Source: Melioribacter roseus
GTDB taxonomy: Bacteria > Bacteroidota > Ignavibacteria > Ignavibacteriales > Melioribacteraceae
NCBI GenBank assembly: GCA_020722005.1
Contig: DYLP01000003.1
Span: 1-64,000, forward strand
Direction of reading: 5' to 3'
Length of the DNA: 64,000 bases
Shown here: positions 84 to 14,969 of the stretch, in pieces
Layout of the letters: every line of letters starts with the position of its first letter
Position numbering within the stretch: position 1 is the first letter of the stretch
Position numbers and translations under genes: made by a program
The notes under the pieces: model-generated
Database searches by the model: none
Told to the model about the DNA's origin: nothing
Seen by the model: only the letters and a program-made list of their open reading frames with translations

Positions 84-389
84 ATGGCAGGCGCATATAA
101 AGTACACAAACAAATTCCAATTTCTTCTGCCGACGGAACGCCAGCATATTCGATGCGTGTTTTTACACTTGAACCTACAGGATATACTCCCTACCATAGT
201 CACGATTATGAACATCTGAATTATGTAATAGAAGGATATGGTGTTCTGGTAGATAAAGAAGGACACGAGCATACATTAAAAGAGGGTGACTTTGCGCTGG
301 TACTTCCCAATGAATACCACCAGTATAAAAACATCTCTGAGAATACAAATTTTGTTTTCATTTGTGTAGTACCGAAACAATACGAGTGA
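84..389 (+). CDS. Small single-domain cupin protein
   Basis: A 101-residue protein made of one cupin beta-barrel. The metal-binding motif is visible as PYHSHDYEHLNYVIEGYG (about residues 33-50), followed by the second motif with a proline and histidine (LPNEYHQYKN). Such small cupins usually bind a divalent metal; no substrate can be named. The ATG at 84 has no nearby ribosome-binding site, and the open frame extends upstream to a stop at 36-38 with sequence that looks like the N-terminus usual in this family, so the true start may be a non-ATG codon between 48 and 78. It converges with the pduT-like gene with no spacer: TGA ends at 389 and the opposing stop begins at 390. Confidence 0.8.
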   Translation: MAGAYKVHKQIPISSADGTPAYSMRVFTLEPTGYTPYHSHDYEHLNYVIEGYGVLVDKEGHEHTLKEGDFALVLPNEYHQYKNISENTNFVFICVVPKQYE

Positions 390-935
390 TCATATCATCT
401 CGCTAAGCAATTCTTTGCGTGGTTTGGGAATAACAACTTTGTTGACGAGCAATCCTCTATCTGCAATTACCTTTGCGCCTGCATCGACTGCACTCTGAAC
501 TGCAGCGACTTCGCCCGTTAATGTGCAAAATGCTTTCCCACCAAGTGCCATAGCAAGACGAATTTCGATCAGTTTTACGCTTGCAGCTTTGACTGCTGCA
601 TCAGCTCCTTCAATCAAGGATGACACAGAAAACGATTCAATAATTCCGAGTGCTTCAAGCATGTCAACATTTGAATGACCAGCCAGTGCAGGGAAAATAT
701 CTTTATGAACATTCGGTATAACAAATGTATCAATTATTCCGAAAGATAATTGATTGACTGCGTTTTCCACAGCAGTTTCAACTTCTGCTACTTCACCTCC
801 GATAAGTACCATGTACTTCCCTGAGCAAATAGTGCGTGATAATATCAATTCTACGTTTGATGTTTTTAGCATTATATCTGCAGCTTGCATTCCCGCTGCA
901 ATACTCGTCATTTCAACTAATCCCAATGAGTTCAT
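390..935 (-). CDS. pduT: PduT-like tandem BMC-domain shell protein
   Basis: A 181-residue protein with two bacterial-microcompartment domains (about 1-90 and 95-181), the usual length for PduT, a trimeric shell protein. Cys37 in TICSGKY is at the position where PduT carries the cysteine that binds a [4Fe-4S] cluster in the central pore, so a redox or electron-conducting shell role is likely by homology. Its start shares one base with the stop of the pduS-like gene (TAATG), which implies coupled translation. No signature enzyme or other shell gene lies within the window, so the cargo pathway cannot be identified here. Confidence 0.9.
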   Translation of the reverse strand: MNSLGLVEMTSIAAGMQAADIMLKTSNVELILSRTICSGKYMVLIGGEVAEVETAVENAVNQLSFGIIDTFVIPNVHKDIFPALAGHSNVDMLEALGIIESFSVSSLIEGADAAVKAASVKLIEIRLAMALGGKAFCTLTGEVAAVQSAVDAGAKVIADRGLLVNKVVIPKPRKELLSEMI

Positions 936-2254
936 TATATCCCCTTTTCAATTATTATAAAATTATCTGTAATTTCTTTTATCACACCATCAATCGAAGC
1001 ATGAATTTTTGCTCCAACCTTATCGGGTTCGATATCGGCAACCAGCTCACCTTTGCTAACTTTTTGGTTTAATTTAACTACTGGTCTTGCTGGCTGACCA
1101 GCGTGTTGCTTGAGTAATAATTTTACGCGTTCTGGAGAAAATTTTATTTCTTCAAAAGGCGTTGGTCTGTCGTAATCTGTCAGTTGCAATTTTTTCATTA
1201 ACATTTTTAACGGGACTCTTCTCCCTTCTTTCATAGGATGAACTTTGACTTCTTTCGTTTGATTGTATCTAATACCATTTTTTCTCAAATAATCTTTACC
1301 CTGATTGCAGGCTTCTCGAGGATAGAGGTCTTCCGGACAAGCATAAAGCGAGCAGAGTCCACACGAACAACACAGGTCGGCATATTGATTCCAAACACTT
1401 TCTCCAGTTGTTGTGAATGCCAGCGATCGCATTACCTTATGAGGTTGAACGTCGTATCCCAGCAAATAACGCGGACAAAATTCGGTACAGTAACTGCATT
1501 GATCGCAGGCAGATTTTCCAATCCTGTTCATATCGTGAATTGGGCGTTCCATCCTGTTTATCAGATAATGATTTTTAGGAAGTATAATAATTCCGGCCGT
1601 GGTTTTGGTTACCGGTTCGTCTACATCAAATGTTAATTTTCCCATTAAAATACCACTGACGAAAATACCGTATTCATCCAGTGTAGTTCCACCAGCAAGT
1701 TCTATCAATTCTCTGAAGCTTGTCCCTAATGGCACGAAAAAAGATTTTGGATTTCTTACGGCACCCGTTACAGACAGGAATTTAAATGCAACTGGAATAT
1801 CTTCTACCGCATTTGATATATTGTAAAGAGTTTCAACATTATTAACAAGGCAACCCACATCTAAGGGTAATCCATGCGGAGGAATTAATCTCTTTGTAAC
1901 GGCGTAAACCAGCTCGTATTCATCACCCGCCGGATAAAAATCGCCTAATAGAGAAAGGTTAATCGAAGGATTTTTAATTGAGTCGGTAAACGAGTTAATA
2001 GCTTTTTTATTTTTTTCTTTGATGCCAATAAAAGTTTTTTTTGCTTCGACATGTTTTGCGAGATGCTCAATTCCTTCGATAATTTTTTCGGGAAAATGAA
2101 CCATTAGTTCGTAATCTTTGTGAATTAACGGTTCGCATTCAGCGCCATTTGCCAATAAAAATTCTACTTTGGATCTTGCCTTTATGTGGGAAGGAAAACC
2201 TCCGCCACCGGCGCCAACCACTCCAGCGTTAAAAATTTTTTCTACTAAATCCAT
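935..2254 (-). CDS. pduS: PduS/RnfC-like iron-sulfur flavoprotein (cobalamin reductase family)
   Basis: A 439-residue protein of the RnfC/NuoF-related PduS family. It shows the glycine-rich nucleotide/flavin segment GAGGGGFPSH (about 14-23) and ECEP (39-42), an SLBB-like stretch near 170-215, two ferredoxin-type cysteine sets (CDQCSYCTEFC at 250-260 and CCSCGLCSLYAC at 295-306), and a C-terminal lipoyl-like barrel ending FIIIEKGI. PduS reduces corrinoid cofactor inside Pdu microcompartments and partners PduT. The adjacency and TAATG overlap with the pduT-like gene supports an electron-transfer pair. Whether the substrate here is cobalamin or another carrier is not shown. The start overlaps the stop of the upstream phosphatase gene. 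Confidence 0.88.
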   Translation of the reverse strand: MDLVEKIFNAGVVGAGGGGFPSHIKARSKVEFLLANGAECEPLIHKDYELMVHFPEKIIEGIEHLAKHVEAKKTFIGIKEKNKKAINSFTDSIKNPSINLSLLGDFYPAGDEYELVYAVTKRLIPPHGLPLDVGCLVNNVETLYNISNAVEDIPVAFKFLSVTGAVRNPKSFFVPLGTSFRELIELAGGTTLDEYGIFVSGILMGKLTFDVDEPVTKTTAGIIILPKNHYLINRMERPIHDMNRIGKSACDQCSYCTEFCPRYLLGYDVQPHKVMRSLAFTTTGESVWNQYADLCCSCGLCSLYACPEDLYPREACNQGKDYLRKNGIRYNQTKEVKVHPMKEGRRVPLKMLMKKLQLTDYDRPTPFEEIKFSPERVKLLLKQHAGQPARPVVKLNQKVSKGELVADIEPDKVGAKIHASIDGVIKEITDNFIIIEKGI

Positions 2255-3489
2255 TATCCGTTCCTTTTTATTACAACAATGGTTTTATCGTCCTGATACT
2301 TGCTTTCACCTGTAGAAAATTTTATTACATCGTCAAGAATTGCGTAGGCAACATCTCTTGCAGTAAGATTCGAGTTCTTTTTGATTATGTCTGAAAGTCT
2401 CGACTCACCATAAAATTCATATTTGTTGTTGGCTGCTTCTGTAACACCGTCGGTATAAATAACAAGCAGATCATTTTTGTCGAAATTAATGCTATCGGTT
2501 TCATATTTAGAATTGGGAGCTGGACCGAGCAGCGGACCTGTTGAAGCTAATTTAATAAATGAATTCGTATTCTTTTTGTAGAATAAAGGAGGATTATGCC
2601 CTGCATTGGAATAAAGACAAAGTCCTTTTTTGTCGACAGACAATTCGCAATAAAATAGCGAGACGAATTTATCGTCGCTGAATATTTTATTGACAAGTTG
2701 ATTTAGTCTGAACATCATCGGCGAAATTTTTACCTGAAAAGTGGAAGCCATTCGCACTGCGCCAGAGATATACATTGCTTCGGCTGCTGCCGCAAGTCCT
2801 TTTGAAGCTGCGTCACCCACAACTATGCCAAGCCTCTCTTCGTCCTCGCCAATTTTTAAATAATCATAAAAATCACCGGCTACTGTTTCTGCAGGAATTG
2901 TAACTCCGAATATTTCATAAAAATGAAAATTGTATTGATGCTCTGGAAGTATACTCCTTTGTAACTCTTTTGCTTTGTCGATGTCTTTTATCAGATTTTT
3001 TCTTATTGCTGTTAGATATCGCTCACGCAATTTGGAAGTCAATACTGTGGCTAAGGCATTTAACGTATCCCGTAATTCTTCCCCTATTTGGTCGCTGTTA
3101 ACCGCCAAAAGATATTCGTAATATTTTTTACCGTTTACATTTATTTTCTTACCCACTCCCGATGCCGAATATCTGAAAATTCCTTTCGAAAGCAAAGTCA
3201 TATCGGTTTCATCTGCTAAGATGGTGCGTTCCTTTGCAATTTGTTCCAGAATAGGATTTTCTGTTATAGATAGCATATAATTTTCGGGAATTTTGGTCAA
3301 ATTTCCGATTTGCAATACCAATTTATAAGCAGCCGACGGGGAATCGAGTTTCCAGAGTCTTCCGCCGTTCAGGTTAAATTGCTCTTTGCTTACTATCTCT
3401 TCGAGAACGTATTTGAGCAGTTCGGTATCTGTTTTAAAATTTCCCGATGCAATCGTGTCAAAAGTCTTTATAAGTTTTTTCTGATCCAT
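2254..3489 (-). CDS. GAF-domain PP2C-type (SpoIIE/RsbU) protein phosphatase
   Basis: A 411-residue protein. The first 170 or so residues look like a GAF sensor domain (GGRLWKLD, AYKLVLQIGNL). They are followed by a helical linker with the typical AKELQRSILPE and a SpoIIE/RsbU phosphatase domain. Metal-binding aspartate motifs are intact: VAGDFYDY, GDAASKG, AGHNPP and TDGVTEA. Such enzymes dephosphorylate anti-sigma antagonists or other Ser/Thr-phosphorylated regulators. No STAS or anti-sigma kinase gene is beside it. Instead it lies between an M64 peptidase and the pduS-like gene, sharing stop/start bases with both (TAATG at each junction). The signal sensed is unknown. Confidence 0.88.
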   Translation of the reverse strand: MDQKKLIKTFDTIASGNFKTDTELLKYVLEEIVSKEQFNLNGGRLWKLDSPSAAYKLVLQIGNLTKIPENYMLSITENPILEQIAKERTILADETDMTLLSKGIFRYSASGVGKKINVNGKKYYEYLLAVNSDQIGEELRDTLNALATVLTSKLRERYLTAIRKNLIKDIDKAKELQRSILPEHQYNFHFYEIFGVTIPAETVAGDFYDYLKIGEDEERLGIVVGDAASKGLAAAAEAMYISGAVRMASTFQVKISPMMFRLNQLVNKIFSDDKFVSLFYCELSVDKKGLCLYSNAGHNPPLFYKKNTNSFIKLASTGPLLGPAPNSKYETDSINFDKNDLLVIYTDGVTEAANNKYEFYGESRLSDIIKKNSNLTARDVAYAILDDVIKFSTGESKYQDDKTIVVIKRNG

Positions 3490-4757
3490 TATTCGGAATA
3501 AAAATTAATTACTTTAATAATTGCTCTGCGGCATACCTCATTGAATTCGCTTGAACTGAACGACCTCATCAAACTGTTGAATGTAGGTCTGTAGACTCCT
3601 TTCGAAACATAACCCCCACCCTCAAACACACCAATTATATTCGAGTAGATTGAATCGCTGGGTGTTGGCACAGGTGTAGTTTTGTCGATTAACGATTTCC
3701 ATTTGGAATCAAAATTTACAAGCGTCGTAATATTAGGTTCCCACGGCTCTATATCAAGATTATAAAATTCATTATACGTAGTTGTATCTGCATACTCGTC
3801 TGCAAGTCCAGCTAATCCGTGACCGAATTCATGAACAAAAATTAATTTAGACAATCGATTGTCGGAAGCCGTAACGTTATAAAAATTATAAATTGCACCT
3901 CCACCGTATTTATTCGTATTGACTAAAATAAATATCTGATCATACGGAGCATTCGATGCAACGTCTCTTACACTGTAATAATCTTCAGTCATTAAATATC
4001 GTTCACTATCAAATGTATAAAATCTGGAATTGACAAGAGTATTTTTCCAGATATTTTCTACAGGAATATCAGTGCCGCTTTCTTCTGAAGGGGCTTCAAT
4101 TCCCCAGATGTTAATTTTTCCTCTTAGTTCAGAGAATGGTGAGAATTCAAAAAGATATTGGGTAAATCGGGAACAATCTTTATGAAATTTTTCCATTTCC
4201 CCTGCCGTGTAGCCTTCGGGTATGATAACTATATCAAGTTTTTTGTGATGCTCTCCGCTATAATGAACTTTGAAGGCTTCATATTTTTTCGATTGCTCTT
4301 TAATTATAAAATAATTATTCGGGTCGATTATATAAGAAAATTTATTTAAGAACTTACCATTGCGGTCCCTCTTGTCGATTTCGATTCTAACCTTTGACTT
4401 TGGATATGGAAAGGTAACAGAACATGTGAATGTTTTCACGACAGAGTCGGCTTCGTCGGTAGTTTGCCATTCTTGAAACAAGGTTGAAAAACCCCGTGAA
4501 TAGATTAACTTGTTGGAGTGAAAGTCATATACCTTGAAGAAATAATTTCCCCAAAAAAGCGTGTCGATTAAATTGACGTCTGAGCCGCCCCAATACTGTT
4601 CTTCTATTAATCTGTTAATAGAAATTATCTCATTGTTTTTATCGCCTGTTTCATAGAAATCAATACGTAATGTTTTATCCAGAAAATATTTGTTGAATTC
4701 CACTTGAGGATATAGCGATACAGAGAATACAAAAATGAAAAAAGCAATTTTTCTCAT
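3489..4757 (-). CDS. Secreted M64-family zinc peptidase (IgA-peptidase-like)
   Basis: A 422-residue protein with an N-terminal signal peptide (MRKIAFFIFVFSVSLYPQ). The zinc motif HEFGHGLAGLADEYAD near residue 309 fits the M64 pattern HExxH with a downstream DEY. An N-terminal beta-rich domain (about 20-160) precedes the catalytic part, which begins around DIVIIPEGYTAGE. Members of this family are exported metallopeptidases; the substrate here is unknown. Its stop overlaps the phosphatase start (TAATG) and its start lies 3 bp after pyrE, so it belongs to the same transcription run although its role seems unrelated to pyrimidine synthesis. Confidence 0.85.
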   Translation of the reverse strand: MRKIAFFIFVFSVSLYPQVEFNKYFLDKTLRIDFYETGDKNNEIISINRLIEEQYWGGSDVNLIDTLFWGNYFFKVYDFHSNKLIYSRGFSTLFQEWQTTDEADSVVKTFTCSVTFPYPKSKVRIEIDKRDRNGKFLNKFSYIIDPNNYFIIKEQSKKYEAFKVHYSGEHHKKLDIVIIPEGYTAGEMEKFHKDCSRFTQYLFEFSPFSELRGKINIWGIEAPSEESGTDIPVENIWKNTLVNSRFYTFDSERYLMTEDYYSVRDVASNAPYDQIFILVNTNKYGGGAIYNFYNVTASDNRLSKLIFVHEFGHGLAGLADEYADTTTYNEFYNLDIEPWEPNITTLVNFDSKWKSLIDKTTPVPTPSDSIYSNIIGVFEGGGYVSKGVYRPTFNSLMRSFSSSEFNEVCRRAIIKVINFYSE

Positions 4758-4760
4758 ATT

Positions 4761-5339
4761 TTATTTAATTTTTCTGGAACCTGGTTTTACGAGAGGTATT
4801 TTATTTTCATTACAAAGAGGGCATTCTTCAGGAAGATAAGATTTAACCTCAAGTTGCAATGTACTGAACTGAGGTACACCAAAGTTGACTTGATTATTGC
4901 TTCTGTCGACTATAAAGCCAACTCCGGCTACGATGCCACCTCCTTTTCTAACAATTTCCATTACCTCGAAAACAGAACCACCGGTAGTGACTACGTCTTC
5001 ACATACCAGATACCTTTTACCCGCTTCGATGTTGAAGCCTCTTCTGAGTATGAGAGCTTTTTCCTCGCGTTCGGCAAATATCGATTTCTTATTCAGTTGA
5101 CGCGCAACTTCCTGCCCTACAACAATTCCGCCAATTGCCGGTGAAATTACGATATCGATTTCGTAGTCTATGAAAAAATTTGCGATCATTCCCGAAATTA
5201 ATGAATTATATTCTGGATATTGAAGTACAAGTGCGCATTGAAAATATTGATTGCTATGTCTGCCAGAAGTCAATAGGAAATGACCTTCGAGCAGAGCTCC
5301 TGTTTTCAAAAAAACATTGAGAATTTCCTGTTTATCCAT
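4761..5339 (-). CDS. pyrE: Orotate phosphoribosyltransferase
   Basis: A 192-residue type I phosphoribosyltransferase that joins orotate to PRPP to give OMP in de novo pyrimidine synthesis. The PRPP-binding motif is seen as [14 protein letters not shown], with the flexible catalytic loop region around [12 protein letters not shown] and the N-terminal [13 protein letters not shown] typical of PyrE. A C-terminal CPLC motif is present. The start overlaps the end of phhB by 8 bp. No other pyr gene is nearby. Confidence 0.94.
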
Positions 5340-5622
5340 GAGAGTGTATTATATTTATTGAATGTGCAAGTTTAAAGTCATTTTCAGTAATACCGTTGAC
5401 GCTGTGGGTTTGTAGCGTCACTTCCACATTATTCCATCCGAATATTCTGATGTCTGGATGGTGGTCAATTTTTTCGGCTTCGATGGCTATCCTAACAACG
5501 AATGCAATTGCATCCGAGAAAGAATCGAGCTTAAAATTACGTTTCAAATTATTATTATCATAAGACCACCCTTCTATTGAGGACAGTCTTTCGATAATTG
5601 CTTTCTCGTCGAGTTTATTCAT
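5332..5622 (-). CDS. phhB: 4a-hydroxytetrahydrobiopterin dehydratase (PCD/DCoH family)
   Basis: A 96-residue protein with the pterin-4a-carbinolamine dehydratase signature: [19 protein letters not shown], then the [17 protein letters not shown] block that carries the third conserved histidine. The canonical enzyme recycles the pterin cofactor of aromatic amino-acid hydroxylases. No hydroxylase gene is visible in this window, and in many bacteria the protein is linked instead to molybdopterin or folate chemistry, so the physiological partner is open. It overlaps clpC by 8 bp and pyrE by 8 bp. Confidence 0.9.
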
Positions 5623-8176
5623 TAATTGGGTTTTCTTGTTCGCTGTTTTTTTCTTGTTTATCCGGATTTCTTAGATCGTCGTCTGCTTTGTCCTGAATTT
5701 CTTCATTTTCTTCCTGCGATTTTTTTTCAGGTACAAAATAAAGTTCATCGGTATTCTTTTTATGTTTTACAATGATCTTGTCGCCTTCTTTGAAATGACC
5801 CAGGAGCAATTCTTCTGCCAGCGGATCTTCGATATATTTTTGAATTGCACGTTTCAAAGGTCTCGCACCGAATTTGGGGTCGTACCCTTTTTCGGAAAGA
5901 AATTCAATTGCAGATTTGTGCAATTCGATATTCATCTTATTTTCCTGGATATTTTTAACCAGGTCTTTCATTTCAATGTTGATAATTTGCTTGATGTCTT
6001 CTTTATCGAGACTTCTGAAAACGATAGTTTCGTCAATCCTGTTTAGGAATTCAGGATTGAAGAGCTTCTTCATTGCGTCTTCAACAGTATTTTTTAATTT
6101 AGTATAAGCATCAGTTTCTGTAATATCGCCGAAACCAAATCCTCCGGTAACTTTAATATCTTTCGTACCAATATTCGAAGTCATAATGATTATAGTATTC
6201 TTAAAGTCGACTCTTCGGCCAAGACTGTCGGTCAAAACTCCATCGTCAAGAACTTGGAGAAGAATATTAAAGACGTCAGGATGAGCTTTTTCAATTTCGT
6301 CGAAAAGTACAACAGAATACGGTTTCCTTCTGACGCGTTCGGTTAATTGACCACCTTCTTCATATCCAACATATCCAGGAGGAGCCCCGACCAATCTGGA
6401 TACGGAAAATTTTTCCATATATTCGCTCATATCGATTCTAATAAGTGCATCTTCTGTGTCGAATAAGTAACGAGCAAGTTCTTTAGCTAATTCAGTTTTA
6501 CCAACGCCTGTTGGTCCCAGGAAAATGAATGTACCAATCGGTCTATTAGCACTTTTAAGACCAGCCCTGGTCCTGCGAATTGCTTTCGAAAGTTTTGAAA
6601 CGGCTTCGTCCTGTCCTACAATTCTTTGTTTAAGAGCTTCTTCCATCTTAAGAAGTTTTACGCTTTCAGCCTGAGCAACTCTAGTAGTTGGAATGCCAGT
6701 CATCATCGATACAACAGTTGCAATATCTTCTTCTGTAACGTCATAAATCATATCCTGAGTTTTGGCTTCCCACTCGCGTTTAGCAATTTCAAGGTCGGAC
6801 TGCAACTGGCGTTCTTTATCTCGTAATCGAGCTGCCTCTTCGTAATCCTGCTGCTTGACTACCTGGATTTTCTGTAATTTTACTTTTTCAATTTCTTCTT
6901 CGAGACGCAATATTTCTTCGGAAACGGTAAAATTACCCATATGAACGCGTGATCCTGCCTCGTCAATTACATCGATGGCTTTATCAGGCAAATGCCGGTC
7001 GGTTATATAACGTTCACTCAAACGTACGGCAGCTTCGATAGCTTCACGCGAATAACGTACATGATGATGTTCTTCGTATTTGAATTTAATGTTTTCGAGA
7101 ATTTCAATTGTCTCTTCTGGTGAAGGCGGGTCGACCATAACTTTCTGGAATCTTCTATCGAGGGCGCCATCGGTTTCAATATATTTTCTGTACTCGTCAA
7201 GAGTAGTAGCGCCAATGCATTGGATATCGCCACGTGCCAGTGCGGGTTTGAACATATTCGAAGCATCGAGCGAGCCGGAGGCACCACCTGCGCCAACTAT
7301 CGTATGTAATTCGTCGATAAATAAAATTACGTCGTCGGCTTTTTCGAGCTCGTTCATTAAAGCTTTCATTCTTTCTTCAAACTGGCCTCGGTATTTTGTA
7401 CCTGCTACTAATCCTGCCAGGTCGAGAGTAACAACGCGCTTGTCTTGTAGTATACGAGGCACTTTTCTTTGAACAATACGAAGAGCCAGCCCTTCGGCAA
7501 TAGCTGTTTTTCCAACGCCGGGCTCGCCGATCAGAACAGGGTTGTTCTTTTTCCTTCTACTCAATACCTGAGCAACGCGCTCAATTTCTTTTTCTCTACC
7601 GATAACCGGATCCAGCTTGTCTTCAAGAGCGAGTTTTGTTAAATCCCTGCCGAAATTGTCTAACACAGGTGTTTTAGTTTTTTCGACTTTCTTTGCGGTA
7701 AAAGGTTGTGCAAATGAAGTAGGAGTTTTATGAGTTTCTTTACTCGAAAGTATGTTATTCAATTCCGCTCTTACATTGTCGTAATTAACATTGAATTGAT
7801 GCAAAATTTGTGTAGCAATATTGTCTTCGTCCCTCAGGAGCGAAAGAAGTATATGTTCTGTTCCAATTACGTCGGATTTATAAATCTTGGATTCAATCTG
7901 CGTAATTTTCAACACTTTCTCGGCTTGTTTGGTAAGCGGGATATTACCAATTGTCAGGGTCCCGCCTGATGTTCTGACGGTATCTTCGATTGCCTTTTTC
8001 AATTTTACCAGGTCTACGCCAAGGTTTCTCAATATTTTTACGGCTACGCCCTCTCCTTCACGAATAATGCCCAGAAGCAGGTGTTCCGTGCCAATGTAAT
8101 CATGACCCAGTCTAAGTGCTTCTTCTCGACTTAATCGAATTACTTCCTGTACCCTTTCTGAAAAATTTCCTTCCAT
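5615..8176 (-). CDS. clpC: ClpC ATPase, Hsp100 unfoldase
   Basis: An 853-residue Hsp100 protein. An N-terminal double Clp-N repeat (about 1-145) is followed by AAA domain 1 (Walker [14 protein letters not shown]), a UVR coiled segment ([17 protein letters not shown]) and AAA domain 2 ([13 protein letters not shown]). A D2-small domain and an acidic tail follow. The UVR motif in the middle domain identifies ClpC rather than ClpA or ClpB. The segment GGFGFGDI sits where ClpP-docking loops lie, so it probably feeds ClpP. No ctsR, mcsA or mcsB gene is adjacent, unlike in Firmicutes. It is the first gene of the minus-strand run that ends with the pduT-like gene. Confidence 0.95.
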
Positions 8177-9370: not shown

Positions 9371-9789
9371 TGGATAGTTTATTCGAAATATTGATTATCC
9401 TTTTTCTTATTTATTCCGTCGTCAGCTCGATATTTGCTGCAAGGGAAAAACAGGAGAATTCAAGTACGGGAGAAGAAAACTCCCCTCCTCCCGATTTATT
9501 TGAAGATTTATTCGGCTCAAAAATGCCACAGAAAACACAGGATGAGGACACATTTACCTGGAACCCAGAAGAAGAGTTTATTAATGTCAAAAAATCTGAA
9601 AGTACAAGTGCAATCCAGAAAGAAACGGTTGCTAAAACTCCAATAAAAAAATTAAAAGAAACATATCATGAAAAGACTACTATAAATAAGGCAGATTCAA
9701 TCCGTAAGAAAATGAAGAATCCCAGAACAATGCGAGAACTCTTTTTGATATCCGAAATTCTAAATAAACCGAAAGCTTTCCGAAGATAA
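9370..9789 (+). CDS. Small single-pass membrane protein of unknown function
   Basis: A 139-residue protein I do not recognise. Residues 4-24 are a hydrophobic segment (LFEILIILFLIYSVVSSIFAA). The remaining 115 residues are highly charged and low in hydrophobics, with a Pro/Asp-rich patch (PPPDLFEDLFG) and a Lys-rich C-terminal part ending in a short ordered motif (RTMRELFLISEILNKPKAF). It is translationally linked on both sides by TAATG overlaps, to floA upstream and to the helicase downstream. By position it could be a FloA-associated membrane adaptor, but this is a guess. Confidence 0.75.
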   Translation: MDSLFEILIILFLIYSVVSSIFAAREKQENSSTGEENSPPPDLFEDLFGSKMPQKTQDEDTFTWNPEEEFINVKKSESTSAIQKETVAKTPIKKLKETYHEKTTINKADSIRKKMKNPRTMRELFLISEILNKPKAFRR

Positions 9790-11774
9790 TGGCTGAAAAG
9801 TACATACTCAAAAGAATTAATAAACAGGATGTTACAGACGAATCCCGTTTTAGTATTAATTACCGGGAAGAATTAAATTCTTCCCAGTACGAGGCAGTAG
9901 CGGCTGTTGAAGGAAACTATCTCGTTATTGCAGGCGCTGGTAGTGGTAAAACCCGTACACTTGTCTATCGCGTGGCTCGACTTACAGAATTGGGTTATGA
10001 TCCATCATCAATATTACTTTTGACCTTTACACGCAAAGCCGCTAAAGAGATGCTCGACAGAGCTGCTATGCTCCTCGATAACCGATGCTCGAAAGTTAAC
10101 GGCGGAACCTTCCATTCTTTTGCTAATATTACACTTCGTAAATATGCTAAAGCAGTTAATCTGGACAACCGCTTTACCATTCTCGACCAGGGCGACAGTG
10201 AAGACGTAATAAATTTAATTAGAAGCGAACTCAATCCAACTAAAGACAAAAAAAGATTCCCGAATAAACAAACTATTTATAAAGTTCTCAGTCTCTCTGT
10301 TAACACAGGCAAATCAATTGAAAAACTGATCGAGGAGGAATACCCTCATTTCCTCGAATATGCCGATAAATTTAACGATATTAAAAAAGTCTACGATTCG
10401 TATAAAAGACAAAATAATCTACTCGATTACGACGATTTATTAATTTACCTGAGAAATTTTTTGCTTGATTTAACTCCCGCCGCGAAGTCATTCCTCAATA
10501 CAATTAGGTTCGTTATGGTAGATGAATACCAGGATACGAATCATTTGCAGGCAGAGATAATAAAAGGACTCGGTCAGATAAACGAAAATATAATGGTTGT
10601 TGGTGACGATTCTCAATCGATTTATTCATTTCGCGGTGCCACGTTTAAAAATATAATGGAATTTCCAAAATTGTTTAAGGACGTAAAAATTATTACACTC
10701 GAAGAAAACTACCGTAGCACACAGGAAATTCTCGACTTTTCAAATTACATCATAGAGCATGCAATTGAAAAATATCCAAAGCACCTCTACAGCAGAAAGA
10801 GTGGTGGTGAGTTACCCGGAATAATCTGCGCTGCAAATGAAAATATGCAATCCAGATTTATCGTAGAAAAAATTCTTGAATTACGCGAAGAGAATGTACC
10901 GTTAAATGATATGGCAGTATTGTTCCGCTCTTCATATCACTCCTTCGACCTGGAAATCGAATTGAACAAAGCTAATATCCCGTATATAAAATACGGCGGT
11001 ATGAAGTTCATCGAAGCAGCTCACATTAAAGACCTGCTTGCATTTCTAAGGATTGCTTCCAATCCACTCGATTTCGTAAGCTGGTACCGAATACTCCTTC
11101 TACATGAAGGCATCGGTCCGAAAAAGGCTCGGACAATAATGGATAAATTAGCAAAAGGTATACTGACAATTAAAAACTCTCCCGATAAAACTTTAAGCAC
11201 CAGTTATAACGATAAAATTTATAATCTTTTCAATGTATTACACGAAATTCATACAAAGAATACACTTCCGGCAGACAAGGCTGAAATTGCAATGAAATAT
11301 TATCATAATTTATTTATTGAGAAGTACGACGATTGGAACAAACGGAAAAAAGATCTGGATATATTCATCAATATTGCTGAGAACTACAGGAGTCTTGAAA
11401 GCTTTTTAACCGACATGGCGCTTGAACCGCCTCAGGATTCAGTGGCCGATATTGAAGCGACGGATAAAGAGAAAGAAATACTTACCTTATCAACCATTCA
11501 TTCGGCCAAGGGACTTGAATGGCATACAGTCTTTATAATTCACGCAGCAGATGGATTTTTCCCATCGACGCAGTCGTTCGACAAGCTCGAATCTCTGGAA
11601 GAAGAAAGAAGGCTGATGTATGTGGCTTCAACACGTGCCAAACAAAATTTATTCGTTTGTTATCCTATGAATATATTCGACCGATTCCAAGGAATAACAT
11701 TTGCCAAACCTTCCAGGTTTATCGACGGTGTGGGAGAAAATCTTGCCATTCAATGGCTAATAGAAGAGGAATAA
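9789..11774 (+). CDS. UvrD/PcrA-family ATP-dependent DNA helicase
   Basis: A 661-residue superfamily 1A helicase. The motifs run in order: Q-motif region LNSSQYEAV, Walker A AGAGSGKTRT, motif Ia LLTFTRKAAKEM, Walker B DEYQDTN, motif III GDDSQSIYSFRGA, motif IV ENYRS, motif V STIHSAKGLEWH and motif VI RRLMYVASTRAK. It would unwind DNA 3'-5' in repair or replication-conflict resolution. It is slightly shorter than standard UvrD/PcrA and lacks their long C-terminal extension. The start overlaps the preceding membrane-protein gene by one base. Confidence 0.93.
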   Translation: MAEKYILKRINKQDVTDESRFSINYREELNSSQYEAVAAVEGNYLVIAGAGSGKTRTLVYRVARLTELGYDPSSILLLTFTRKAAKEMLDRAAMLLDNRCSKVNGGTFHSFANITLRKYAKAVNLDNRFTILDQGDSEDVINLIRSELNPTKDKKRFPNKQTIYKVLSLSVNTGKSIEKLIEEEYPHFLEYADKFNDIKKVYDSYKRQNNLLDYDDLLIYLRNFLLDLTPAAKSFLNTIRFVMVDEYQDTNHLQAEIIKGLGQINENIMVVGDDSQSIYSFRGATFKNIMEFPKLFKDVKIITLEENYRSTQEILDFSNYIIEHAIEKYPKHLYSRKSGGELPGIICAANENMQSRFIVEKILELREENVPLNDMAVLFRSSYHSFDLEIELNKANIPYIKYGGMKFIEAAHIKDLLAFLRIASNPLDFVSWYRILLLHEGIGPKKARTIMDKLAKGILTIKNSPDKTLSTSYNDKIYNLFNVLHEIHTKNTLPADKAEIAMKYYHNLFIEKYDDWNKRKKDLDIFINIAENYRSLESFLTDMALEPPQDSVADIEATDKEKEILTLSTIHSAKGLEWHTVFIIHAADGFFPSTQSFDKLESLEEERRLMYVASTRAKQNLFVCYPMNIFDRFQGITFAKPSRFIDGVGENLAIQWLIEEE

Positions 11775-11829
11775 TTTTTTTGGTTTAGTAAATTGGATTC
11801 AATTATTTTTCGTATAAAAATTGGTGAGC

Positions 11830-12228
11830 ATGTTGAATAAAAAAGAATTAATTTCAAGAGCAGTTGAAGCAGCTCGAAAAGCCTACGCTCCATATTCAAA
11901 TTTTCATGTCGGCGCCGCATTGATAACTAAAAGCGGTAAAATTTATTTGGGCGCAAATATCGAAAATTCATCTTACGGATTGACAATTTGTGCCGAAAGA
12001 ACGGCAGCATTTAATGCAGTGCTCGACGGTGAAAAAGAATTTGATGCAATTGCTATCGTTAGTGATTCCGGAAATTTTACTCCTCCTTGCGGTGCTTGTC
12101 GACAGGTGCTATCCGAATTATGTGGAAAAAATTTACTCGTTATTATGAGCAATAAAAAAGGCGAAATTAAAGAAATGACTCTTGAAGAATTACTTCCTTT
12201 CTCATTCGATAAAGAAAATTTGATATAA
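11830..12228 (+). CDS. cdd: Cytidine deaminase
   Basis: A 132-residue homotetrameric-type cytidine deaminase that converts cytidine or deoxycytidine to uridine or deoxyuridine. The zinc and catalytic motifs are complete: CAERTA, with the catalytic glutamate, and [10 protein letters not shown]. The N-terminal [14 protein letters not shown] matches the family. TTG and GTG codons 9 and 6 bases upstream are alternative starts; none has a clear ribosome-binding site, and I took the first ATG. It heads a nucleoside salvage set with tdk, nupC and punA, tdk following after 1 base. Confidence 0.94.
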
Positions 12229-12229
12229 T

Positions 12230-12799
12230 ATGGAACCCGTAACACATTTTCATCCAATGGGTAGTGGCTGGATTGAAGTAATTGCCGGCTGTATGTTCAG
12301 TGGTAAAACGGAAGAATTAATACGCAGGTTAAAAAGAGCAATCATAGCCAGACAGAAAGTTAAAATTTTCAAACCCAAAATTGACACTCGTTATTCCAGT
12401 ACAGAAATAGTTTCTCATAATGAACAATCGCTTCCCTCAATTTTAGTTAACAATGCAGAAGAAATTCTGGAACTTGTAGAAGATGCTCAGGTCATTGGAA
12501 TTGACGAAGCTCAATTTTTTGATTTGAAATTGGTCGATGTTTGCAATAAACTCGCAGACGAAGGCAAAAGAGTAATTGTTGCCGGACTCGACCAGGATTA
12601 CAGGGGAGTTCCGTTCGAACCAATTCCACAATTGCTTGCAACGGCTGAATTTATTACAAAAACTTTAGCAATATGTGTTGTCTGTGGAAATATTGCAGAT
12701 AGAACTCAAAGAAAGATTTCTTCAAACGAGAGAGTACTCGTTGGAGCTTCGGAAAGTTATGAAGCTCGACGTCGTAAATGTCATTATATACCGGATTGA
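12230..12799 (+). CDS. tdk: Thymidine kinase, type II
   Basis: A 189-residue type II thymidine kinase that phosphorylates thymidine to dTMP. The P-loop is [12 protein letters not shown] (about 20-31), the Mg/catalytic region is GIDEAQFFD, and the structural zinc site is made by CVVCG plus the C-terminal RRKCH. It lies between cytidine deaminase and the nucleoside transporter, consistent with salvage of imported nucleosides. It begins one base after the cdd stop. Confidence 0.95.
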
Positions 12800-12801
12800 A
12801 T

Positions 12802-14154
12802 ATGGATTTGATTTCACTTTTAAGAGGTATTATCGGAATACTTTTATTAATCGGTATTGCATTCCTCTTGTCGAACAACAAATCGCGTGTCAATTGGCGA
12901 TTAGTTATTTCGGGTTTATTGATCCAGATTATTTTTGCTATTTTGATTCTGAAAGGAGATACGCTCGGAACATATTTCTCCCCGCTCGGATGGCCAAAAG
13001 AATTTTTCAGATTCATCAGTAGTTTTTTCGTATTGATTCTTAACTTCACCTCCGAGGGCGCAAAATTCGTGTTCGGTAATTTAGGACTGGGTCCCGGCAA
13101 CGAAGAAAGTATGGGAGTCTTCTTTGCTTTTCAGGTATTACCTACGATAATTTTTTTCGCCAGTTTAATGTCTGTACTTTATTATCTTGGCATAATGCAA
13201 AAAATTGTCGAAGGGATGGCATGGATAATGGCAAAAGTAATGGGAACAAGCGGAGCCGAATCACTATCCTGCACTGCTAACATTTTTGTAGGTCAAACAG
13301 AAGCGCCTCTGATGATAAAACCGTATTTGAAGGGAATGACCAAGAGCGAACTTTTGACAATCATGGTCGGTGGCATGGCTACAATTGCAGGCGGTGTAAT
13401 GGCAGCATATATTCAGATTTTAGGAATGGCTTTTTCCAAAACTCACAATATCCCTATTGAAGAAGCACAATTAATTTTCGCGACGCATTTATTGGGTGCC
13501 AGCGTAATGGCTGCACCGGCAGCATTGTTGATTTCAAAAATAATTTTTCCAGAAACCGGCGAGCCGGAAACAAAAGGCAAAGTAAAAGTAAAAGTCGAAA
13601 AATCTGCTTCGAATCTAATTGAAGCTGCAGCTGCAGGAGCTTCCGAAGGTATGACACTGGCATTGAATGTTGCAGCGATGTTAATTGCTTTTATAGCTTT
13701 GATTGCAATGATTAATTATTTCCTCGGCTGGCTGGGCGATTATTCGGGAATTAACCCAATTCTTCAAAATAAATTTGAATCCAGACTAAGTCTCCAATTT
13801 CTCTTTGGCTCAATATTACAATTTCTTGCTTACGGCATCGGCGTACCGTGGGAGAGCGCTTATCATTTTGGCAGCTTAATCGGGACAAAAATAGTTCTCA
13901 ATGAATTCGTTGCATATCTCGATATGAGCACGCTAATTCAATCGAACATCCTTACAAATGAAAAAGCAATGTTCATGGCAACCTACGCATTAAGCGGCTT
14001 TGCAAACTTCAGTTCGATTGCAATTCAAATTGGAGGCATTTCACCTCTGGCTCCTTCCCGAAGAAGTGAGCTTGCAGAACTCGGACTTAAAGCCGTAATT
14101 GGTGGCACTCTGGCAAATTTATTAACGGCTACTCTGGCAGGAATTTTAATCTGA
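12802..14154 (+). CDS. nupC: NupC-type concentrative nucleoside transporter
   Basis: A 450-residue inner-membrane protein of the CNT family, which imports nucleosides with H+ or Na+. Family blocks are visible: GQTEAPLMIKPY, FATHLLGASVMAAPAAL, then GVPWESAYHFGSLIGTK and FMATYALSGFANFSSIAIQIGG, within about ten hydrophobic helices. The ATG at 12802 is preferred over one at 12778, which would lie inside tdk. The stop overlaps the punA start (TGATG). The neighbours cdd, tdk and punA make an uptake-and-salvage unit. Confidence 0.94.
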   Translation: MDLISLLRGIIGILLLIGIAFLLSNNKSRVNWRLVISGLLIQIIFAILILKGDTLGTYFSPLGWPKEFFRFISSFFVLILNFTSEGAKFVFGNLGLGPGNEESMGVFFAFQVLPTIIFFASLMSVLYYLGIMQKIVEGMAWIMAKVMGTSGAESLSCTANIFVGQTEAPLMIKPYLKGMTKSELLTIMVGGMATIAGGVMAAYIQILGMAFSKTHNIPIEEAQLIFATHLLGASVMAAPAALLISKIIFPETGEPETKGKVKVKVEKSASNLIEAAAAGASEGMTLALNVAAMLIAFIALIAMINYFLGWLGDYSGINPILQNKFESRLSLQFLFGSILQFLAYGIGVPWESAYHFGSLIGTKIVLNEFVAYLDMSTLIQSNILTNEKAMFMATYALSGFANFSSIAIQIGGISPLAPSRRSELAELGLKAVIGGTLANLLTATLAGILI

Positions 14155-14969
14155 TGTTAAACCTAAAAGATAAATACAAAAACATTGTTGAAAGTATTAA
14201 TAGCCTAATGCCGTTCAAACCGGAAATTTGCATCGTTCTTGGTAGTGGTCTGGGCAATTTTGCAGATAACATTAAAAATAAATTTACAATTCCTACAAAA
14301 GAGCTTCCGGGTTATCCAGCCTCAACCGTCGAAGGTCACAAAGGATATCTTCATTTTATCGAGCTCCACAATAAAAAGATTTTAGTGGTTCAGGGCAGAC
14401 TCCATTTTTACGAAGGTTACAGGCTGTCGGATTGCCTACTTCCAGTTCATATTGCTTCGCAAATTGGTGCAAAGAAAATAATTTTGACCAATGCTGCCGG
14501 AGGCGTAAACAAAAATTTTACACCCGGGGATTTAATGCTTGCTTCTTCTTTCATCTCATTTAACATTAAAAAAGAGATGGCAGAAGTTGTGGGCACCGGT
14601 AATTTTGAAAGTCGAAATCGCAGTTTCCCTTCCGAAGGTCTTAATGAAATAATTAAAAAAGCAGCAGCCGAAGAAATGATAGTTCTCAAAGAAGGAGTTT
14701 ACTGGTTCAATAAAGGTCCTTCTTACGAAACTCCAGCAGAAATTCAAATGGTAGCGAGAATGAACTGTGACGCTGTTGGAATGTCAACCGTTCACGAAGC
14801 TTTTTACGCTCATCTGATGGGAATGGAAACTTCATCGATTTCATGCATTACAAACATGGCGGCGGGTATTTCTCCGAATAAGCTTTCGCACCAGGAAGTA
14901 ATAGATACTGCAGAACTGGTTAAAGAAAAATTTGAACGTCTCGTAAAAAAAACTATTGAATTGATGTAG
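14154..14969 (+). CDS. punA: Purine-nucleoside phosphorylase (trimeric, PNP I type)
   Basis: A 271-residue phosphorylase that splits purine nucleosides into base and ribose-1-phosphate. Seen motifs are VLGSGLGNFAD, the phosphate/substrate loops VEGHKGYL and VVQGRLHFYEGY, TNAAGGVNKNFTPGDLM, and the family signature around CDAVGMSTVHEAFYAH. The residue pattern fits the low-molecular-weight trimeric class specific for guanosine and inosine. It ends the salvage run; its last 17 bases overlap the convergent rsmE gene. Confidence 0.93.
   Translation: MLNLKDKYKNIVESINSLMPFKPEICIVLGSGLGNFADNIKNKFTIPTKELPGYPASTVEGHKGYLHFIELHNKKILVVQGRLHFYEGYRLSDCLLPVHIASQIGAKKIILTNAAGGVNKNFTPGDLMLASSFISFNIKKEMAEVVGTGNFESRNRSFPSEGLNEIIKKAAAEEMIVLKEGVYWFNKGPSYETPAEIQMVARMNCDAVGMSTVHEAFYAHLMGMETSSISCITNMAAGISPNKLSHQEVIDTAELVKEKFERLVKKTIELM

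Follow-up and report, generated by a model that had tools for sequence, protein, structure and literature searches.

In microcompartments (BMCs) of the PDU and GRM types, PduS is an NADH-oxidising protein with FMN and two FeS clusters that associates with PduT, whose pore contains a [4Fe-4S] cluster (PMC6325248). The FRAG type is an enigmatic BMC whose function is not known; it is reported from Ignavibacteriae, its genes being spread over as many as six genomic places, with a BMC-P triplet and a known AldDh (Sutter et al., 2021; PMC8217296). The main text of that description, as far as available, mentions no PduS-PduT module, no common AldDh tail and no tailed aldolase. The PduS-PduT pair of Melioribacter roseus described here resembles that of the PDU and GRM systems in its domain layout, its tandem genes and its ferredoxin cysteines (PMC6325248). 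Unlike those systems, however, the pair lies outside a BMC operon, within a clpC-pyrE-M64-PP2C run, and its neighbours include no B12 or glycyl radical enzyme.

The window analysed is the whole 64 000-nucleotide stretch (1-64000), the first position of which is the start of its contig. The open reading frames confirm four genes on the minus strand, as set out in the preliminary description: a PduT-type BMC-T shell protein (390..935; tandem BMC domains, Pfam PF00936 twice, E 1e-45; pore Cys37 in TICSGKY), a PduS-type, RnfC-like NADH-binding flavo-FeS protein (935..2254; PF01512, PF10531, PF13534 and PF13375), a GAF-PP2C serine phosphatase of the RsbU/SpoIIE type (2254..3489; PF07228), a neighbour that the pair can do without, and a neighbouring M64-type peptidase (3489..4757; PF09471 and PF16217), which is probably exported given its hydrophobic N-terminus. 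At each of the three junctions between these genes the sequence is TAATG and one base is shared, also as described, an overlap that is specific to the genome of the window; relatives show gaps of a few bases. Upstream on the same strand are pyrE (orotate phosphoribosyltransferase; 4761..5339; TIGR01367, above cut-off), a 4a-hydroxytetrahydrobiopterin dehydratase (5332..5622; NF002017, above cut-off) and, at the head of the run, a clpC-type Clp ATPase (5615..8176; matching ClpB/ClpA-family models), which has the same head position in relatives. The run is thus led by clpC, as proposed. The phosphatase and the M64 peptidase are probably on the same transcript as the pair. Counts of internal promoters and terminators scarcely differ from those in shuffled sequences, and the 64-kb window gave no tRNA, tmRNA or Rfam matches.

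A small cupin gene (84..389, plus strand; PF07883; cluster c59) is convergent to pduT and ends one base before it; a cupin is next to pduT in a same-genus genome too. The neighbours further left were judged from a complete genome of the same genus, in which PduT is followed by genes for a cupin, a short-chain dehydrogenase and an AAA ATPase. A full BMC operon to the left of position 1, which the preliminary description had envisaged as an alternative, was therefore rejected.

Cys37 of PduT is conserved in all 38 distinct homologues compared, and lies opposite a Cys in both of the PduT-PDB alignments examined. The nearest PDB sequences (3nwg, 3pac and 3n79) are all PduT-type shell proteins, and the pore motif C-S-G-K-Y fits the PduT pattern C-P/S/A-G-K/R/S-Y/F (PMC6325248). 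The tandem BMC domains and the pore Cys are present at the sequence level, and [4Fe-4S] ligation is predicted. The match to the NCBIfam model TIGR02526 (E 1e-35, 122.9 bits) falls below the equivalog cut-off of 250.3, so the protein is to be classed as a PduT-type homologue rather than as the PduT of a PDU operon. PduS comprises Complex1_51K, SLBB, Fer4_17 and RnfC_N domains (Pfam), the same four-domain arrangement as in published PduS (PMC6325248), and this set (pfam01512, SLBB, a 4Fe-4S dicluster and RnfC_N) adjoins pduT; its closest PDB relatives are RnfC proteins. The ferredoxin-motif cysteines are kept in 37/37 homologues, the exceptions being single substitutions at neighbouring cysteines in divergent copies. 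Cys37 and both ferredoxin cysteine sets are therefore not only intact, as noted earlier, but also conserved. Judged from coding-sequence comparison, the pair is under strong purifying selection: dN/dS of PduT against the same-genus genome is ~0.01, with dS near saturation, which agrees with the earlier view that the proteins look functional. In another genome of the genus (G035, a single contig), the pduS frame is broken at an A-run near residue 72 (L067:9347-9715, 9652-10659), by either a sequencing error or a pseudogene.

The preliminary description placed a microcompartment elsewhere in the genome, and the search of the other contigs bears this out, with both shell genes and enzymes found. 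Contig C57 carries a full PVM-like locus with a regulator, LUD proteins, AckA, a class II aldolase, an aldehyde dehydrogenase (AldDH), PduL, three BMC-H and four BMC-P, and with no BMC-T and no PduS-PduT (the names other than BMC and PduL were taken from the sequence and the published M. roseus PVM-like locus). Besides this locus, dispersed shell genes are found at three separate places: two BMC-H on C31, two BMC-P on C76 and PduS-PduT on C10. The genome thus holds a BMC-P pair plus four BMC-P in the PVM-like locus; most relatives have three.

The same dispersal is seen across the order, for which 146 genomes were compared. BMC-P was found in 119/146 genomes, mostly as exactly three genes, PduS in 99/146 by the strict list (a threshold of E 1e-60 gives 104, which include divergent copies of the PVM-locus kind) and a PVM-type AldDH in 18/146; a full microcompartment operon is absent from most of the 146. 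In complete genomes the shell genes occupy about four separate housekeeping loci: a BMC-H pair after ruvX (locus A), PduS-PduT (locus B), a BMC-P pair between an RpoD-like sigma gene and deoB (locus C) and a single BMC-P next to dprA, in many cases with a class II aldolase close by (locus D). Shell genes dispersed over several genomic places, as defined for FRAG, are thus found in complete relatives and in the M. roseus genome itself; for FRAG, a BMC-P triplet in many genomes and shell genes mostly remote from enzymes are reported (PMC8217296). Inheritance of the pair follows that of the dispersed BMC-P genes: PduS is present in 92/109 genomes with at least two BMC-P and in 7/37 others (Fisher p 7e-13, shared ancestry ignored), and at a completeness of at least 95% in 64/69 versus 2/14 (p 5e-9, shared ancestry ignored). 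The near-complete genomes G006, G012 and G038 have the BMC-P triplet but no pair, and the pair is therefore not essential. The earlier suggestion of a stranded satellite of a microcompartment located elsewhere holds in that a compartment is encoded elsewhere, but not in implying a main operon: 90 of the 99 genomes with the pair lack a PVM AldDH locus and their shell genes are scattered, so the pair is better described as one piece of a dispersed compartment. We estimate a probability of about two in three that PduS-PduT forms the redox and pore module in a BMC of the FRAG type, the shell genes of which are spread over several housekeeping loci.

Two further observations were made on the shell genes. 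The second BMC-H of locus A (L015:14790-15386, plus strand, and its orthologues) is extended by a variable linker and, at its C-terminus, by a conserved domain of 45 residues, LNVHxLRxLARSFENFPIKGREISKANR; a Rho_N/SAP identity was rejected for this extension (weak Rho_N match at Pfam E 0.004, under cut-off; no convincing PDB match). G042 has three BMC-P (L074:7932-8790, 12374-13147) near a class II aldolase with an encapsulation peptide-like C-terminus and a glucose-6-phosphate dehydrogenase; a PVM AldDH is absent from this locus, which is possibly an add-on.

A second dehydrogenase, found with the PVM AldDH as query at a relaxed threshold, is present in 21/21 FRAG genomes and in 0/4 others (G002, G003, G021 and G068). 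It is 27-31% identical to the PVM AldDH, scores 602.9 bits against TIGR02518 (acetylating acetaldehyde dehydrogenase), just under the cut-off of 620.1, and has an invariant catalytic-type Cys. The tail IEERLRARAGN...GSGISEEEIxKIIxEF was found in all 19 of the sequences read, and consists of an amphipathic segment ending in RAGN, a linker and GSGISEEEIxKIIxEF; this last part appears to be encapsulation peptide-like. An AldDH with an encapsulation-type tail therefore shares the distribution of the pair and the dispersed BMC-P, and the pfam00171 AldDh link of the FRAG type is provided by this tailed TIGR02518-like enzyme. The M. roseus copy is at C22:2202-3833 (= L089:2202-3833), minus strand, with orthologues in L087-L106. 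In the family of the window (f1, probably Melioribacteraceae) the enzyme lies ~15 kb from locus D, and in two other loci ~7 kb from the BMC-P pair. In a further scan of named genomes with the AldDH, the matches listed are from Ignavibacteria. The 878-aa AdhE of G008 (L100) has no tail and was discarded as the FRAG dehydrogenase, as was PduL as a member of the FRAG set (only in 4/25 genomes, those with PVM-like loci). Next to the FRAG pieces examined, no gene was recognisable as an alcohol dehydrogenase.

In two Melioribacteraceae MAGs a tail of the same kind is carried by a class II aldolase beside the usual locus-D genes (L134:1991-2863 and L151:2039-2908, both on the minus strand). These aldolases are ~70 residues longer than their orthologues, and their C-terminal tail is homologous to that of the FRAG AldDH (best scores of 135-141; shuffled sequences reach 76 at most). 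The two are related, with 222/290 columns identical, so a single gain of the tail is likelier than two. The other locus-D aldolases have no tail, so that in most genomes the aldolase is tailless, and some genomes have a locus D without an aldolase; locus D itself was not found in the genus of the window. The scan for further tailed proteins covered the loci analysed here.

A tentative functional proposal can be made from these pieces: the FRAG compartment of Ignavibacteria is possibly an aldolase-fed, aldehyde-oxidising organelle in which a class II aldolase and an acylating AldDH would be targeted by a shared two-helix C-terminal tail, and in which redox balance would be achieved by PduS-PduT electron export to respiration instead of by the conversion of aldehyde to alcohol. 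Inside the shell, a class II aldolase (fuculose-phosphate-type) would probably supply an aldehyde, which the AldDH would oxidise in the lumen to acyl-CoA, forming NADH. By analogy with the PDU and GRM proteins, PduS most likely oxidises this lumen NADH, at the inner face and by way of FMN and two [4Fe-4S] clusters, and PduT passes the electrons out through its pore, where the [4Fe-4S] cluster held by Cys37 would relay them to a cytosolic acceptor. NAD would thereby be regenerated inside, making an alcohol dehydrogenase unneeded. The proposed combination of a class II aldolase with acylating AldDH chemistry is also that of PVM and PVM-like BMCs (PMC4207490). ACI BMCs are similar in having a tailed class II aldolase, a BMC-P triplet and an AldDh on a separate locus, but differ in having a contiguous main locus and in being found only in Acidobacteria (PMC8217296).

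The alternative that fares best is that PduS-PduT works for the PVM-like (fucose/rhamnose) compartment encoded on C57, as a satellite of that full locus. The C57 locus has its own AldDH, PduL and shell genes but no PduS-PduT or BMC-T, in other genomes (G039) PVM-like loci include a PduS-PduT of their own, ~40% identical, and four satellite or satellite-like loci have been listed for M. roseus (Axen et al., 2014; PMC4207490). Yet the PVM-like locus, which is separate and self-contained in AldDH and PduL, is missing from most pair-bearing genomes, the 90/99 without a PVM AldDH noted above, so that the pair does not follow such loci as a satellite would. G039 and G052 hold both kinds of pair side by side, which makes the FRAG pair a separate lineage. 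We consider this alternative unlikely, although the pair could be shared by the FRAG and PVM-like compartments in the genus of the window. The second PduS-PduT, ~40% identical to the FRAG pair, is located in or near the PVM-like locus (G039, L076 9354-11340; G052, C1).

A function of the SPU-like, nucleoside/DeoC kind is suggested by the deoB beside the BMC-P pair and by a nucleoside salvage run in the window. The BMC-P pair on C76 (L016:4308-6704) lies between the RpoD-like sigma gene and deoB, an arrangement kept across the order, and this deoB-flanked position hints at nucleoside-derived sugar phosphates. The salvage run (11821-14969, plus strand) encodes a cytidine deaminase, a thymidine kinase, a NupC-type transporter and a purine nucleoside phosphorylase.

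Coupling of the pair to the GAF-PP2C phosphatase, which would set its level or act through a partner switch, is improbable. The earlier label of a GAF/RsbU-type phosphatase is sound: the SpoIIE-type PP2C domain is matched by Pfam, the catalytic Asp residues are present (invariant positions D206, D209, D226, D347, D400 and D401) and the N-terminus, which has no Pfam match, resembles GAF domains in its predicted structure (Foldseek E 3e-5; VIA-align Z 13-14 over ~140 residues). The order PP2C-PduS-PduT recurs in dozens of genomes, so the arrangement is above chance. Among genomes holding both genes of a junction, PP2C and PduS are adjacent in 55/55 of f1 and 3/3 of its sister family (f2), with gaps of a few bases, but in 0/30 of a third family (f3, probably Ignavibacteriaceae); lack of the junction in relatives, which the preliminary description would have taken as refutation, is thus not what is seen. 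For M64-PP2C adjacency, the counts are 45/52, 5/5 and 32/41 in f1, f2 and f3, respectively. The shared neighbourhood of phosphatase and pair is therefore maintained within f1 and f2. The phosphatase is, however, retained in 40 genomes in which PduS is absent, and its presence has no association with BMC-P (Fisher p 0.40, shared ancestry ignored). Two natural empty sites show that the PduS-PduT pair behaves as a unit: G068 has clpC-M64-PP2C-aspartokinase/homoserine dehydrogenase and G048 has the same with the pair inserted between, while G002 has PP2C-SDR and G010 has PP2C-PduS-PduT-SDR. Both BMC-P and the tailed dehydrogenase are missing from G068 and G002, which keep the phosphatase and M64; since the pair lies elsewhere in f3, phosphatase and pair are mutually dispensable. 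The claim that the phosphatase regulates the pair is accordingly unsupported, and the phosphatase and the M64 peptidase are long-standing chromosomal neighbours rather than parts of the machine.

Most improbable of all is a repurposed redox pair acting free of any compartment, for example as a soluble RnfC-like NADH oxidase: PduS is RnfC-like, and in G088, G089, G119 and G127 the pair occurs although at most one BMC-P was found, but most of these exceptions are fragmented or incomplete MAGs, the PduT shell fold and pore Cys are kept in 38/38 and loss of the pair accompanies that of the BMC genes.

Read as part of a FRAG-type BMC, the pair belongs to a type that is already known, and the findings that most merit further work are the tailed AldDH and aldolase. 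The FRAG name was given without a function, since the genes of these compartments do not lie in clusters with enzymes. That a redox pore pair and a tailed AldDH accompany FRAG compartments, and that an aldolase can bear the same tail, allows substrate and redox balance to be proposed in testable form, and illustrates that gene neighbourhood alone overlooks whole microcompartments. Electron transfer across a BMC shell would become testable in a group with isolates (Melioribacter and Stygiobacter).
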